NCBI RefSeq assembly: GCF_004210375.1
Contig: NC_134830.1
Coordinates: 2,356,001 to 2,420,000 of the forward strand
Source: Tachypleus tridentatus
Lineage: Eukaryota > Arthropoda > Merostomata > Xiphosura > Limulidae
DNA length: 64,000 bases
Direction of reading: 5' to 3'
Shown piece after piece: positions 26,419-59,740 of the stretch (the first letter of the stretch is position 1; each line of letters begins with the position of its first letter). A program made the translations under genes and the position numbers. The notes under the pieces were generated by a model. It ran no database searches. It saw only the letters and a list, made by a program, of their open reading frames with translations, and was not told where the DNA came from.

Positions 26419-26845
26419 AGTTCTTGATTTGTCACTTTCTAGAATTAATCATTCTTATGTCAGATAAACTGCGAAATGGAAGCAGTTCGTTCTTTAGAAA
26501 TACAAAATACACCGATTATTTACGTAAAACAGCCAGATCTCAGTATAAAAAAATGAATTATTTTAAGTCTAATTGGTGTGACTATTTATTTACAAGTGTC
26601 ACAGCTGTAACCAGAAGAAAGGCTGTAGTCACGCAACAGCTTGTTGATAAAGAATCGTGTTCCGTACATCGACTGACCACTTGACTGATTCTTCAATTAG
26701 GTGTGAGTCATGTTATGAGTGTTCGGTGGCGACATGTGTGAGACATGTTTTCTGAACAAACAGGAACAAGCTGGCAATCAGAGAAGCAACGTAGAACATT
26801 AAACTCGAAGAAGCCATTCTTACACAAACAACTCAAACGAAATTT
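26419..26845. other. Spacer between array and Penelope element
   Basis: Unique sequence with a chance 86-codon frame. Nothing is recognised. Confidence 0.45.
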
Positions 26846-27330
26846 GAACCAATATAAAGGGACACCTTTGTACTTATAATAATTTATAACCTAATATCTA
26901 AGTGCAACGCCCCCTACAATCCCGTACCCTTATATCAGGACAGCTGGTATGGGTATTAACACTTTTACTAACAAAGCAGAGAACAGCGTTTCACCATTCT
27001 TAGATCAGGTTAACAAAGAGAAGGTCGAAACGTTGTTCTCTGCTTTATTAGTAAAATTGTTAATACCCGTACCAGCCGTCTTGAGATACATTGTTACTTA
27101 AAGTGGGTTTCTCGTCATCACGAATCCCGTACCTGTTTACAGTCTCGTCTCTAACACATGTGCCCGGCAAGGTCACTTGCAAACTCTCTTTATTAACCTG
27201 AAGATGACCCAGGAAGGTTGAAACGTTGTTCTGTACTTTATTTCAATTAAAGTTTTAATACCCGTACCAGCCATCTTTAGAATACATTTTTACTTCAAGT
27301 GGGTTTCTCATAATCATGAATTACTTCAAC
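26846..27330 (+). repeat. Left Penelope terminal repeat with long palindrome
   Basis: The stretch from accaatataaagggacacc (26852) through aacgccccctacaa matches the right end at 32633-32705, so it is the 3' end of an upstream copy or a pseudo-LTR. Inside lies an inverted repeat: arms 26946-26992 and 27027-27073, each 47 nt with a few mismatches and a 34-nt spacer. A second pseudo-LTR stretch follows, containing cctgaagatgacccaggaag then gttgaaacgttgttct (27197-27231), a conserved hairpin-plus-GAAAC motif also present at 32775 and, inverted, near 59165. Confidence 0.75.
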
Positions 27331-27398: not shown

Positions 27399-27582
27399 AT
27401 GTCTGAACTCACCGACAGGAGGCCATTGTTAAACTTACGCGTTCATGCGATCCTGACGAAACTAAGAAACTTAAACCAACAATACCAAAAGGAAAAATTG
27501 ATTCCTGATTTTATGGAAATAAAAGTATCCAAGAATTTTAATTATATACAAACATCATCCAGAACTTACAGAAAAAACTGCT
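27399..27582 (+). pseudogene. Penelope ORF, N-terminal remnant
   Basis: An open stretch beginning at the ATG near 27400 reads MSELTDRRPLLNLRVHAILT, then KLRNLNQQYQKEKLIPDFM and KVSKNFNYIQ. This charged region fits the poorly conserved N-terminal part of a Penelope polyprotein. The frame is lost just before the 20-bp array. Read in the other frame, the downstream bases give EKTAKSYIK, which is the sequence that has been amplified. Confidence 0.6.
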
Positions 27583-29215
27583 AAAAGCTATATTAAACTG
27601 CTAAAAGCTATAATAAACTGCTAAAAGCTATATTAAATTGCTAAAAGCTGTATTAAACTGCTAAAAGCTATATTAAATTGCTAAAAGCTGTATTAAACTA
27701 CTAAAAGCTATAATAAACTGCTAAAAGCTATATTAAATTGCTAAAAGCTGTATTAAACTGCTAAAAGCTATATTAAATTGCTAAAAGCTGTATTAAATTG
27801 CTAAAAGCTGTATTAAATTGCTAAAAGCTATATTAAACTGCTAAAAGCTATAATAAACTGCTAAAAGCTATATTGAATTGCTAAAAGCTGTATTAAACTG
27901 CTAAAAGCTGTATTAAACTGCTAAAAGCTATATTAAACTGCTAAAAGCTATATTAAACTGCTAAAAGCTATAATAAACTGCTAAAAGCTATATTAAATTG
28001 CTAAAAGCTGTATTAAACTACTAAAGCTATAATAAACTGCTAAAGCTATATTAAATTGCTAAAAGCTGTATTAAACTGCTAAAGCTGTATTAAACTGCTA
28101 AAAGCTATATTAAACTGCTAAAAGCTATATTAAACTGCTAAAAGGTATAATAAACTGCTAAAAGCTATATTGAATTGCTAAAAGCTGTATTAAACTGCTA
28201 AAAGCTGTATTAAACTGCTAAAAGCTATATTAAACTGCTAAAAGCTATATTAAACTGCTAAAAGCTATAATAAACTGCTACAAGCTATATTAAATTGCTA
28301 AAAGCTATAATAAACTGCTAAAAGCTATAATAAACTGCTAAAAGCTATATTGAATTGCTAAAAGTTGTATTAAACTGCTAAAAGCTGTATTAAACTGCTA
28401 AAAGCTGTATTAACCTGCTAAAAGGTATATTAAACTGATAAAAGCTGTATTAAACTGCTAAAAGCTATATTAAATTGCTAAGATCTGTATTAAATAGCTA
28501 AAAGCTATAATAAACTGCTAAAAGCTATATTAAATTGCTAAAAGCTGTATTAAGCTGCTAAAAGCTATATTAAATTGCTAAAAGCTGTATTAAACTGCTA
28601 AAAGCTATAATAAACTGCTAAAAGCTATATTAAACTGCTAAAAGCTGTATTAAACTGCTAAAAGCTATAATAAATTGCTAAGATCTGTATTAAATAGCTA
28701 AAAGCTATAATAAACTGCTAAAAGCTATATTAAACTGCTAAAAGCTATAATAAACTGCTAAAAGCTATATTAAATTGCTAAAAGCTGTATTAAACTACTA
28801 AAAGCTATAATAAACTGCTAAAAGCTATATTAAACTGCTAAAAGCTGTATTAACCTGCTAAAAGGTATATTAAACTGATAAAAGCTGTATTAAACTGCTA
28901 AAAGCTATATTAACTTGCTAAGATCTGTATTAAATAGCTAAAAGCTATAATAAACTGCTAAAAGCTATATTAAACTGCTAAAAGCTATAATAAACTGCTA
29001 AAAGCTATATTAAATTGCTAAAAGCTGTATTAAACTACTAAAAGCTATAATAAACTGCTAAAAGCTATATTAAACTGCTAAAAGCTGTATTAAACTGCTA
29101 AAAGCTATAATAAACTGCTAAAAGCTATATTAAACTGCTAAAAGCTATACTAAACTGCTAAAAGCTGTATTAAACTGCTAAAAGCTATATTAAACTGCTT
29201 AAAGCTATATTAAAC
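27563..29215. repeat. 20-bp array grown inside the Penelope ORF
   Basis: About 82 units of 20 bp, ctgctaaaagctatattaaa, with recurrent variants (gctgtattaaa, gctataataaa, gctaagatctg). The first and last units merge smoothly with Penelope coding sequence on both sides: aaaaactgctaaaagctat at the left and tatattaaactcgaaacaga at the right. One ancestral unit was therefore part of the element. The unit is not a multiple of three and introduces stops. Confidence 0.95.
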
Positions 29216-29279
29216 TCGAAACAGAAAGAACGAAATGACTTGAAGAAACAAAAACATGAACCTAGACCACCACCCGACA

Positions 29280-29440
29280 TGCTGCATTCAACCACCACTT
29301 GGCCTGCTCTATTCAACCACCACCTGGCCTGCTGTGTTCAACCACCACCCGGCCTGCTCTATTCAACCACCACCTGGCCTGCTGTGTTCAACCACCACCC
29401 GCCCTGCTGTATTCAACCATCACCTGGCCTGCTGTGTTCA
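29280..29440. repeat. 25-bp array inside the Penelope element
   Basis: About seven units of 25 bp, core ttcaaccaccacctggcctg then ctgtg. It lies between N-terminal and RT remnants of the element. Short overlapping frames across it (78-96 codons) are repeat by-products. Confidence 0.92.
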
Positions 29441-29979
29441 CCAGACATTTATGGACTCGTACAACGTAACATCAATCAACTCAGTAGAATAAACAACAAA
29501 GAAAAGTGGACCGCCACAACAAGAAACTAGATAAATTAAGGTGACAACAACAAAATAGCCGCCACACGACGAACCACCAACAAACCTTGTGGTTAACAGA
29601 TCAGACCGACAGTTAAGCAATGAAGAAATACATCTACTCAACTTCGTAGTAACACGAAATGAAAGCTTACCTGGAAGACTTAGCTAATAGAATGGAGAAC
29701 AATTCTACACAAGCCGAAATACCAACAAAACAACAAAAAGCATCCATCAGAAAGAAGACAACTTCGACAACAATTCCACCGACAACCAACAACCTAACTT
29801 TCCAGGTAGATCTGAAAACATCTATTTCCCCGAAACACCTTCAACAGTATCGTAAACAACATTTTCAAAGAATTTTCACGCAAAACCATCAATGTAATTT
29901 CACAGAAAAGAAAACTAAAAAAACAACCTCATACGGAAAGATATTATTTCTATAAACAACCCAAAACAAGACAACAACA

Positions 29980-31915
29980 TCAAACTTCTAAAAGCAGATA
30001 AGGGCAATGATATAGTTGTAATTAACAGAAATGAATACATTCAAAAAATGAACATCTTATCAGATACAAACAAATTTAAACTAATAAGCAAAAATCCAAC
30101 AAAAACACATGAAAACCAATTAAACAAAATGTTACTCCAAATTTTAAAAAAATTTCATGAAACATTTATTTTTACCTACATCAGAACTATACGGCTTTCT
30201 TAATCCTCACAAACCCAATTATCCACTATATCCTCGGTAAACATATAGCGTGGACATATTCTAAATATCAGTCTTTTTACAAAGACTCTTTTTACTTTAC
30301 ATATATTCTTTATCAACTAAATCATAAAGCCCTAATGGTCAGTTTGGATGTAATCTCTCTGTTCACAGAAGTCCCAACAACTGAAGCCTGCAAGATAGCT
30401 TTAGAACTTTATATCCAAGACCCCAACACATTGATATACATCTCCAGCAACCAAGTAGCAACTCTTACAGAATTCACTACCACCAAAACTATCTTTATGT
30501 TTAATAACCAAAATGACCTATAAATAAATGGCCTAAGTATGGGGAATCCTGTGTAACCAGTTCTAGCCAACATTTTTATAACACAGATTGAACCACCACT
30601 ATACTGGTACAGGTATGTTGATGATACATTACACCCACCACTATACTGGTACAGGTATGTTGATGATACATTACACCCACCACTATACTGGTACAGGTAT
30701 GTTGATGATACATTACACCCACCACTATACTGGTACAGGTATGTTGATGATACATTACACCCATCACTATACTGGTACAGGTATGTAGATGATACATTAC
30801 ACCCACCACTATACTGGTACAGATATGTTGATGATACATTACACCCACCACTATACTGGTACAGGTATGTTGATGATACATTACACCCACCACTATACTG
30901 GTACAGGTATGTTGATGATACATTACACCCACTACTATACTGGTACAGGTATGTTGATGATACATTACACCCACTACTATACTGGTACAGATATGTTGAT
31001 GATACATTACACCCACCACTATACTGGTACAGGTATGTTGATGATACATTACACCCACCACTATACTGGTACAGATATGTTGATGATACATTACACCCAC
31101 CACTATACTGGTACAGATATGTTGATGATACATTACACCCACCACTATACTGGTACAGGTATGTTGATGATACATTACACCCACCACTATACTGGTACAG
31201 ATATGTTGATGATACATTACACCCACCACTATACTGGTACAGGTATGTTGATGATACATTACACCCACCACTATACTGGTACAGGTATGTTGATGATACA
31301 TTACACCCACTACTATACTGGTACAGGTATGTTGATGATACATTACACCCACTACTATACTGGTACAGATATGTTGATGATACATTACACCCACCACTAT
31401 ACTGGTACAGGTATGTTGATGATACATTACACCCACCACTATACTGGTACAGATATGTTGATGATACATTACACCCACCACTATACTGGTACAGATATGT
31501 TGATGATACATTACACCCACCACTATACTGGTACAGGTATGTTGATGATACATTACACCCACCACTATACTGGTACAGGTATGTTGATGATACATTACAC
31601 CCACTACTATACTGGTACAGATATGTTGATGATACATTACACCCACCACTATACTGGTACAGGTATGTTGATGATACATTACACCCACCACTATACTGGT
31701 ACAGATATGTTGATGATACATTACACTCACCACTATACTGGTACAGGTATGTTGATGATACATTACACTCACCACTATACTGGTACAGATATGTTGATGA
31801 CACGGTTGATGGATTCACATCTACAGAACACACACTTAGGTTTTTCAATCACGTTAACTCGACACACCTCAACATTAAGTTCACATGTGAACAGGAAGAA
31901 AGCAATCAAATATGA
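29980..31915 (+). pseudogene. Penelope reverse transcriptase, broken, catalytic motif amplified
   Basis: Recognisable RT segments in order, in shifting frames: GNDIVVINRNEYIQKMN, TSELYGFLNPHKPNYPL (near 30180), motif A MVSLDVISLFTEVP with its aspartate (30335), motif B GLSMGNPV followed by a stop at 30554, then PVLANIFITQIE and motif C YRYVDD. From 30557 to the stop at 31913-31915 the correct RT frame is continuously open for 452 codons, because a 42-bp segment encoding PPLYWYRYVDDTLH is repeated about 28 times. After the array the normal downstream sequence DGFTSTEHTLRFFNHVNST resumes. There is no in-frame ATG at the start of this stretch. It cannot be a working enzyme as it stands. Confidence 0.85.
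30592..31800. repeat. 42-bp array of the RT YVDD motif
   Basis: Units of exactly 42 bp (14 codons) with core ccaccactatactggtacag then gtatgttgatgatacatta. About 28-29 copies occur without a single indel. Variants are limited to cca/cta/tca, agg/aga and one gttgat to gtagat change that keeps Val-Asp. Long frames in the other five registers (66-479 codons) are shadows. Confidence 0.97.
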
Positions 31916-32660
31916 TTTCTTAACCTCAAAATTACAAGAACCGACACACAATTGAAAACAGAAATGTACCGAAAAATCACCCATACTGGATTATACATTG
32001 CTTGGGACTGAGCACATGAAACAGAAAAACTGAACATATTAAGAAACCAAATAAACACAGCCATATAACTATGCTCACCAGGTAAAATTAACAACGAATA
32101 AGACAAAATAAAACAGCACTTCATCAACAGCAACAAATGTCCTCAAAAAACCGTGGAAAAAATTATACACACACAGCTAGATCAACAACAAACAATAATA
32201 AATCCCAAGATACAAGAAACTACAAAACCATATACTGCTGCATACCATATGTTCCCGACATCAGCGGAAAAAATAACCAACATTTGGCAAAAACTCGTAA
32301 CAAAATATGACATTTCAGTAAACACCAATTTTATTCAAAAACCAGGTCAAAAGTAAAGTCCGTACTAGGTAAAACCTACACTGACAAACACCACACCAAC
32401 ATTATTTATAAAATACAATAACTGCCACGACTTCTATATTCGAGAAACAAGTAAAAAAATGGAAACCAGATTCAAAGAACATAAAAAGTCACCTTCACAC
32501 GTTTTCGAACACTGCAAATCAAATAAACACAACATAACCACAGAAAACACTCAAATACTAAATAAAGAAACAAACATAAACAAATGTAAAATTAAAGAAA
32601 CCCTACTTATACAGTAACTAAAACCAAAATTAAACCAATATAAAGAACACCTTTATACCG
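31916..32660 (+). pseudogene. Penelope C-terminal region with GIY-YIG-like endonuclease, broken
   Basis: Downstream of the RT the frame carries connector sequence (FLNLKITRTDTQLKTEMYRK, HTGLYIAWD), then KYDISVNTNFIQKP near 32300. From about 32400 comes the endonuclease signature KYNNCHDFYIRETSKKMETR, then FKEHKKSPSHVFEHCKSNKH and IKETLLIQ-stop-LKPKLNQYK. In canonical proteins the motif reads YIGET; here the glycine is arginine. Stops interrupt the frame at several places. Confidence 0.82.
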
Positions 32661-32868
32661 ATACTAATTAATAACCTAACATCCAACTGCAACACCCCCT
32701 ACAAACTCGTACATTATACTCTCGTCCCTAAATATGTGCCCGGCAACGGTCAGTTGTATACTCTCTTTGTTAACCTGAAGATGACTTAAGAAGGTCGAAA
32801 CGCTGTTCTCTACTTTATTTTAATTAAAGTTTTAATACTCGTATCAGCCATCTTTACAATACATTTAA
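32629..32868 (+). repeat. Right Penelope terminal repeat
   Basis: Matches the left terminal repeat block for block: accaatataaag(a)acacct, aacaccccctacaaa, ctctctttgttaacctgaag, aggtcgaaacgctgttctc, aattaaagttttaatac and cagccatctttacaatacat. The hairpin-GAAAC motif lies at 32775-32808. Confidence 0.75.
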
Positions 32869-59100: not shown

Positions 59101-59114
59101 AACTTATAAATCAT

Positions 59115-59740
59115 GTAAAAACGCCTGGTATGGGTTGAGAACATTTTTATCTAGAATGGCGAACAACGTTTCGACCTTCTTGGGTCATCGTTAGGTTCAC
59201 AAAGAAAGAAAGAAGTAACTGACCGAAAGCTGACCACATGTTTGAAGGGGGTTGCGTAGTTCAGTGTAGGAATGTAGAGGGCCTGCTTAGATGTTTGATT
59301 ATATTTATTAATATAGGTATAAAGGTGTTCTTTTGTATTGGTTTATTTTGGGCTCGAATTGTTGTATAAGTAAGGCTTCTTTAATTTATCGTTTGTTTAT
59401 GTTTGTTTCTTTATTTAGTATTTGAATGTTTTCTATGGTTATGTTTTGTTTATTTGATTTTCAGTGTTCGAAAACGTGTAAAGGTGACTTTTTATGTTCT
59501 TTGAATCTGGTTTCCATTTTTCTACTTGTTTCTCTAATAACAAAATCGTGGCAGTTATCAGATTGTATTTTATAAATAATGTTGGTGTGGTGTTTGTCAG
59601 TGTAGTTTCTACATAGTATAGACCTCAGTTTTGCGTCTGGTTTTTGAATAAATTTGGTATTAAGTGGAATGTCATATATTGTTACCAGTTTTTGCCAAAT
59701 AGTGGTTATTTTTCTTCTGATTCAACTTCCTTCTGTTTAC
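59115..59740 (-). mobile_element. Penelope-like element 3' fragment
   Basis: On the - strand: PLNTKFIQKPDAKLRS, then NYTDKHHTNIIYKIQSDNCH, DFVIRETSRKMETRFKEHKK, SPLHVFEH-stop-KSNKQN and EALLIQQFEPKINQYKRT. This is the GIY-YIG-type endonuclease end with stops. It is followed by the terminal repeat containing gatgacccaagaaggtcgaa then acgttgttcgc (59165-59200). It represents a second, separately inserted copy, inverted relative to 26846-32868. Confidence 0.82.

Follow-up and report, generated by a model that had tools for sequence, protein, structure and literature searches.

A minisatellite probably derived from the motif C segment of Penelope-like elements in Tachypleus tridentatus

Introduction

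Why would the catalytic motif of a reverse transcriptase (RT) be repeated in frame, again and again, inside a single broken transposable element? The question is raised by a stretch of 64,000 nucleotides of the Tachypleus tridentatus genome (NCBI RefSeq assembly GCF_004210375.1, contig NC_134830.1, positions 2,356,001 to 2,420,000; hereafter the window). A first-pass annotation, made from the letters of the window, had described about 28 indel-free tandem copies of a 42-bp segment encoding motif C, with its YVDD pair, of a Penelope-like element (PLE). It had regarded the multiple-of-three expansion as odd, and had suggested slippage or unequal exchange in a dead element, or a minisatellite to which other arrays could be traced. 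Here, the array, its host element and its relatives elsewhere in the genome are analyzed.

Results

The array and its host element

The description of the array was borne out. TRF returned 28.8 copies with 97% matches and 0% indels, and the 28 full units are spaced at exactly 42 bp (Table 1); in a 29th, 32 bases match the unit before the 3' flank sequence begins. The consensus unit translates as PPLYWYRYVDDTLH. Half of the full units (14/28) are identical to it, and the remainder mostly carry C5T or G21A changes. As to higher-order repeats, similarity is slightly raised between units spaced 6, 9 and 15 apart (0.71, 0.61 and 0.58 differences versus ~1). With a 42-bp unit in 28.8 head-to-tail copies, the array falls within the range of ~10- to 100-bp units of a minisatellite.

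Table 1 Features of the window around the 42-bp array (TRF, tandem-repeat calls; a dot marks features given without strand).
Feature	Position in window	Strand	Basis
Repeated PLE 3'-end pieces upstream of the element, pseudo-LTR-like arrangement	26782..27295	.	Alignment; partial pieces
Second tandem array, 20 bp x82, breaking up the PLE 5' part	27575..29216	.	TRF
Third tandem array, 25 bp x7, breaking up the PLE 5' part	29266..29440	.	TRF
PLE body 5' of the array (RT part, motif B), stop-broken	29674..30592	+	Aligns to ordinary copies L028, L029, L031, L035
Stop-free frame of 452 codons (with its stop), array inside; no evidence of coding	30557..31915	+	
42-bp tandem array of the PLE motif C segment, 28.8 copies	30593..31800	+	TRF and unit list
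PLE body 3' of the array: remaining RT, presumed endonuclease part, 3' end	31801..32866	+	Homology

The identification of the host as a PLE-type RT whose motif C carries the YVDD pair was also correct. The array flanks translate as RT, every unit of the window array encodes YVDD in the consensus frame, and GLSMGNPV*PVLANIF, directly upstream of the array, is what we take to be a motif-B-like stretch. Eight ordinary relatives in the same genome (L028 to L035) have a single motif C core each. One of these, L030, has a 467-codon frame that matches PF00078 RVT_1 (E = 3.5e-10; 40.4 bits, cut-off 29.6). Pfam returned no RT match for the window element's own pieces, which as DNA align to ordinary PLE copies. 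Pfam also returned no GIY-YIG endonuclease match in the L030 protein or in window positions 32384-32614; in L030, FYIGETSRKMETRFKEH presumably resembles the GIY-YIG motif. A search of solved structures gave three weak matches (best E = 0.075).

The match of the window element to other loci stops at ~32866. In the 5' part, positions 1812-2199 of L028 align piecewise to window positions 27488-27598, 29192-29294 and 29416-29638, around the two interrupting arrays. A fragment of the same PLE's 3' part, 80% identical, lies on the opposite strand at 59114-59721 (-).

The same array at other loci

In a whole-genome array search, 40 of 2471 candidates were scored, with 76 matches, so the census of 42-bp loci is a lower bound. 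Nineteen array-like loci were fetched, the window included, and 16 proved to be of the 42-bp type. This type is therefore present at a minimum of 16 loci, near the ends of three contigs (C5, C6 and C1), in 3 to 77 units. The earlier guess of a minisatellite with traceable relatives thus held, with the same array at 15 other fetched loci; since these are mostly of other lengths, a one-off assembly artefact is unlikely.

On the basis of their flanks, the 16 loci fall into eight groups: C6a (the window), C6b, C5a (three loci), C5b (two), C5c (three), C5d, C1a (three) and C1b (two). Not all of these are independent, because the 110-bp 5' flanks are identical between C5a and C5b and 2% different between C1a and C1b. 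All 16 arrays end at unit phase 34-37, and ten of them start at phase 36. Representatives of the groups (stretches of 8.5-10 kb) have in common the PLE, additional pieces of the PLE 3' end and a ~270-bp dispersed repeat; one other short match between them spans 48 bp. The upstream end of PLE homology before the array differs (~126 bp in L022, ~215 bp in L012, ~440 bp in L010). Flank identities across groups were set aside where homology stops early, on the 5' side for L011, L012, L013, L015, L022, L026 and L033 and on the 3' side for L016, L017, L020 and L034, as flank that is unrelated or wrongly aligned would enter the values.

Members of one group have flanks 95-100% identical, yet their unit numbers span 3-37 or 12-46. 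In L009, L024 and L014, flanks that are 99-100% identical enclose 37, 3 and 26 units, respectively, and L021 and L011, with 3' flanks 99% identical, have 12 and 46. Copy number, the other mark of a minisatellite, is thus variable between duplicate loci.

Two side observations concern these flanks. The ~270-bp repeat, perhaps a SINE, flanks several array loci in both orientations (L017:7537-7767, L009:1051-1319, L012:687-961). Two pairs of loci, L012/L013 (C5, 51 kb apart) and L016/L017 (C1, inverted, 0.41 Mb apart), are near-identical with equal array length, and may be either recent duplications or assembly duplications.

The open frame

A frame check confirmed that the frame stays open for 452 codons. 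That the rest of the element is full of stops, as had been stated, is roughly true, judging from the open stretches in the array's frame between 30203 and 32700 (106, 10, 452 for the array, 31, 18, 10, 84, 3, 82, 17, 0 and 8 codons). The three forward frames across the window array hold 0, 1 and 57 stops, and the three reverse frames 0, 0 and 65. Three of the six frames are thus free of stops, so openness cannot be taken as a sign of constraint; any array built from a unit that happens to lack a stop stays open.

The suggestion that expansion by a multiple of three is odd or constrained found no support, as only two of the nine periods seen at motif C (see below) are divisible by three. Other loci, although not alleles of the window array, also argue against frame constraint. 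Array-frame stops are present at 5 of the 16 loci with the 42-bp type (L011, L016, L017, L019 and L020), and indels at three: one 5-bp insertion in L015, three 2-bp deletions in L019 and many in the unit parse of L020. In L016 and in L017, 70 units encode YVDN versus 7 that encode YVDD, and the changes that make YVDN are common to most units. Distinct unit variants were then counted per group, excluding L020, and compared with a neutral expectation derived from the possible changes, given the numbers of transitions and transversions seen. Synonymous variants numbered 25 (22.3 expected), non-synonymous variants 57 (56.1 expected) and stops 2 (5.6 expected), although these are non-independent observations and the shortage of stops is slight. 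The unit variants are consistent with neutrality. The open frame of the window array has an ordinary explanation, and the array itself is real.

Motif C as a site of repeated tandem duplication

The motif C segment has been expanded with nine periods (31, 32, 36, 37, 38, 42, 43, 50 and 52 bp). Arrays of this segment occur as 50 bp x11 in L023, 43 bp x3.7 in L025 and 38 bp x3.9 in L026, and six loci found by a pattern search have 32 bp x22, 38 bp x5, 31 bp x20, 36 bp x4, 52 bp x2 and 37 bp x21. The pattern consisted of two exact motif C cores 20-41 or 43-73 bp apart; L026 was missed by it, and a match at C5:5605620, inside the L015 array, was excluded from the count. Eight tandem places or place pairs beyond the 42-bp type were recovered, L023 and L025 among them. 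The pairs at C2:142.7/143.28 and C1:178.14/178.98 were each counted once, their second places (C2:143.28 Mb and C1:178.98 Mb) not having been fetched. In the 37-bp locus, L049, no PLE body lies within the fetched stretch, and the array runs past its left end.

Motif C cores total 4374, or ~3,869 after subtracting the 505 in fetched array loci. For comparison, three control PLE segments gave 0/3583, 0/4701 and 2/5102 tandem places (2 in 13,386 copies) with a slightly different pattern (periods 21-74, with an A required in the gap); both control duplications have two copies each among the matches listed. The difference between motif C and the controls is significant without the 42-bp family (Fisher p = 2e-4), with its eight groups (p = 4e-9), and without both the 42-bp family and L023 and L025, which were known before the pattern was designed (p = 0.002), in a test for which the segment was picked because of the finding, the core was tuned to admit L023 and only three controls were used. 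Motif C is probably a hotspot at which tandem repeats arise.

By eye, the repeated segment has its left ends inside a span of ~15 bp (CAATT to TTACACC), and the right ends are spread over ~50 bp. Junction leftovers amount to 5 bases for the 50-bp array, 4 for the 52-bp array and 0 for the 38-bp array of L045; TRF bounds leave 2 bases in both the 31-bp and the 36-bp array. Under a stricter extension, the leftovers were 29/31 bases (L046) and 33/36 bases (L047); the two methods disagree for these two loci, so their microhomology is uncertain. Leftovers of 0-5 bases would be compatible with microhomology at the junctions.

In four of the eight non-42-bp loci with a left flank, PLE homology upstream of the array is absent or very short (0 bp in L026 and L045, ~19 bp in L047 and ~43 bp in L046); L026 and L045 have the same period and may be a single event. 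In the first 34.5 Mb of C1, 79 motif C cores were counted, 23 with motif B and 42 with the 3' core, but this co-occurrence is too confounded by mutation to serve as a base rate of 5' truncation. A hairpin was considered as a cause and rejected: when two joined units and the ordinary copy L029 were folded as DNA, each on both strands, the z scores were unremarkable (2.51, -1.63, -0.44 and 0.46).

Probable exchange between loci

The consensus unit is identical (0/42 differences) in all 11 C5/C6 loci, whereas 3' bodies differ by 6.9-15.7% between the groups of these contigs. If five groups are taken as independent, the chance of zero consensus change is 2e-3 for a per-site change of 3% and 2e-7 for one of 7%. 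Units diverge by 2.9-3.8% between C5/C6 groups versus 2.3-3.2% within them, and by 8.4-9.8% between C1 and C5/C6 versus 2.3-5.9% within each side, the within-group values including self-pairs and hence being slightly low. The closer likeness inside a locus or chromosome that marks a satellite under concerted evolution is clear for C1 versus C5/C6 and weak among the C5/C6 groups. The best unit is likewise unchanged (0/36 changes) in three of ten non-42-bp loci (L025, L046 and L048), so slow change of the segment may account for part of this identity.

Array variant profiles are nearest within contigs, with the actual labeling among the best 2 of 420, and body distances too lean to contig clustering (18 and 16 of 420). 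The clearest case is that of C6a and C6b, which are nearest by array profile with bodies 14.5-15.7% apart. For the profiles, L020 was omitted (52 insertions in the parse, though TRF gives 42 bp x77), as were the first and last units of longer arrays, and body distances were taken from one representative per group.

A tree of 3' bodies was built from 23 rows, 14 of them non-42-bp copies, leaving out L032, L034, L049 and near-duplicate loci. Its nine rows of 42-bp copies occupy more than one position, and a single clade is rejected (lnL 110 lower, p-AU 0.0001). In a 5' body tree of 16 rows, from which L022, L026, L033 and L045-L048 were lost through short homology, a single clade of 42-bp copies is compatible with the data (p-AU 0.625), so a single founder followed by recombination on the 3' side is possible. 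The array and 5' part are seemingly joined to different 3' parts, as recombination at or near the array would bring about. Taken from these sequence comparisons, arrays have probably been exchanged between dispersed PLE copies. A gradient of 3'-side body divergence away from the array, such as conversion might produce, was looked for and rejected, being weak and non-monotonic (8.9% over the 60 bp nearest the array and 10-17% in the bins beyond).

Genomic setting

Tandem repeats outside the array cover 22-44% of the eight group representatives versus 0-19% of eight 4-kb C6 samples (p = 0.0009); for all 16 loci the range is 8-44%, with L019 lowest. The C6 samples at 1 Mb and 5 Mb had zero tandem repeats, so the setting consists of repeat-rich patches and not of whole contig ends. 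L023 and L025 lie in repeat-poor places (cover 7% and 3% with the array included) and have 11 and 4 units, and L026 has 4 units in a repeat-rich place (64% cover). Array length is therefore not set by the surroundings alone.

A link to telomeres was considered and rejected. TTAGGG gave 2 overlapping 36-mers at a single place. TTAGG, which we take to be the arthropod-type repeat, gave 158 overlapping 35-mers versus 0 in the control; of the matches listed, most are internal and none lies near the window.

Tandem repeats with a period of 10 or more make up 61.5% of the window, in many unrelated arrays that include 94 bp x126, 87 bp x40, 32 bp x77, a 29-bp type x124 and 70 bp x60.

Discussion

The array is probably best explained as a minisatellite that came from a dead PLE copy, was seeded by slippage or microhomology and was spread and homogenised by recombination, and not as a feature of a protein. 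The first duplication would stem from backward slippage of a polymerase, at 0-5 bp of microhomology, from a nearly fixed left end (CAATT...CCTTACACC) to variable right ends. The array could then have lengthened by unequal exchange or slippage, mostly in patches dense in other minisatellites. Gene conversion or other recombination between PLE copies would transfer the array from copy to copy and keep it uniform inside a chromosome region.

Two rival readings are very improbable. That the array is a collapsed or expanded product of assembly is one of them: L012/L013 and L016/L017, near-identical including array length, could be false duplications, but 16 loci with 3 to 77 units, eight sets of flanks and coherent unit variants, along with further periods at further loci, are not what such an error would leave. 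Selection on the repeat as a protein, as a multi-YVDD RT or a repeat protein, is still harder to credit. The divisibility of 42 by three, the indel-free window array, the stop-free array frame at 11 of 16 loci and the 2 stop variants in place of 5.6 all lean towards it. However, half of the six frames across the window array are stop-free, synonymous and non-synonymous variants occur in a neutral ratio, L015, L019 and L020 carry indels, YVDN outnumbers YVDD 70 to 7 in both L016 and L017, seven of nine periods at motif C break the frame, and the element around the window array is itself broken.

Two further readings concern how the arrays arose or spread. One founder PLE with a 42-bp duplication may have retrotransposed to several sites, with independent expansion and no exchange. 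Differing flanks, differing upstream ends of PLE homology (L022, L012 and L010), a junction that is the same across loci and 5' bodies compatible with a single clade would all follow from this. We nevertheless consider it unlikely, given 0/42 consensus changes against 3' bodies that are 6.9-15.7% different in C5/C6 (chance 2e-3 at 3%, 2e-7 at 7%), 3' bodies that reject a single clade, minor unit variants common to loci of the same contig, and 16 loci confined to three contig-end regions (with 40 of 2471 candidates scored). Alternatively, arrays could be born during reverse transcription, with the PLE enzyme copying its own RNA, slipping back and repeating in the manner of telomerase; the PLE family and telomerase are described as having a common ancestor (PMC3846280). 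Copying would run up to a nearly fixed left boundary, the AC-rich run that precedes motif C (CCTTACACC or CAATT), from which the enzyme would return to right sites of variable position with 0-5 bases paired. This would explain clustered left ends, scattered right ends and the PLE homology that stops near the array in four of eight non-42-bp loci. Against it, PLE homology reaches beyond 100 bp upstream of the array in all eight representatives of the 42-bp type, and arrays also change length once their loci have been duplicated; we regard such a birth as improbable. Slippage or microhomology followed by recombination between PLE copies remains the reading we favor.

The origin of minisatellites is poorly explained in general. 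In human TE-derived minisatellites, as reported by Ahmed and Liang 2012 (PMC3389668), arrays start inside TE copies and grow by local duplication, the TE regions enriched in tandem repeats are two in AluS and two in LTR12, and known mechanisms explain 6% of cases. The window case differs in that a coding, catalytic PLE motif is involved, with nine periods, and in that one type is common to dispersed copies and apparently homogenised between them. A review (PMC9659126) reports no conclusive evidence for preferred parts of TEs and places its stress on terminal or non-coding parts, with some ORF cases. In a literature search limited to the titles and abstracts of open-licence papers, nothing was found on tandem arrays at PLE motif C. 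With its relatives, the window array makes a good example of minisatellites arising repeatedly from a single short coding stretch of a transposon, and a probable example of a minisatellite exchanged between transposon copies. The motif C segment, in thousands of copies and with nine array periods beside non-expanded copies, provides natural replicates that can be used to test what predisposes a sequence to tandem duplication, and the 42-bp arrays test whether recombination among dispersed transposon copies moves and homogenises minisatellites.

The Drosophila 1.688 and Rsp-like satellites are dispersed in euchromatin at many loci and homogenised along the chromosome by exchange. Unlike these, the arrays described here lie inside TE copies, and the flanking TE supplies the homology. 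In Tetris TIR-220 of Drosophila virilis (PMC4079207), internal transposon repeats also feed longer arrays, with growth seemingly favored by the chromosomal environment; TIR-220 lies in the element's terminal repeats, whereas the PLE unit is single in the ordinary copies examined.

Through its ordinary copies, the host element shares the RT domain with PLEs of the Penelope/Poseidon clade (PMC11167929), and its pseudo-LTR-like pieces may correspond to those that arise there from partial tandem copies, but the array is a mutation of dead copies and does not belong to the PLE architecture. On C1, several PLE copies among the matches listed also occur as inverted pairs ~2 kb apart, for example at 614622(-)/616681(+), 1379429(-)/1381454(+) and 30801637(-)/30803601(+).
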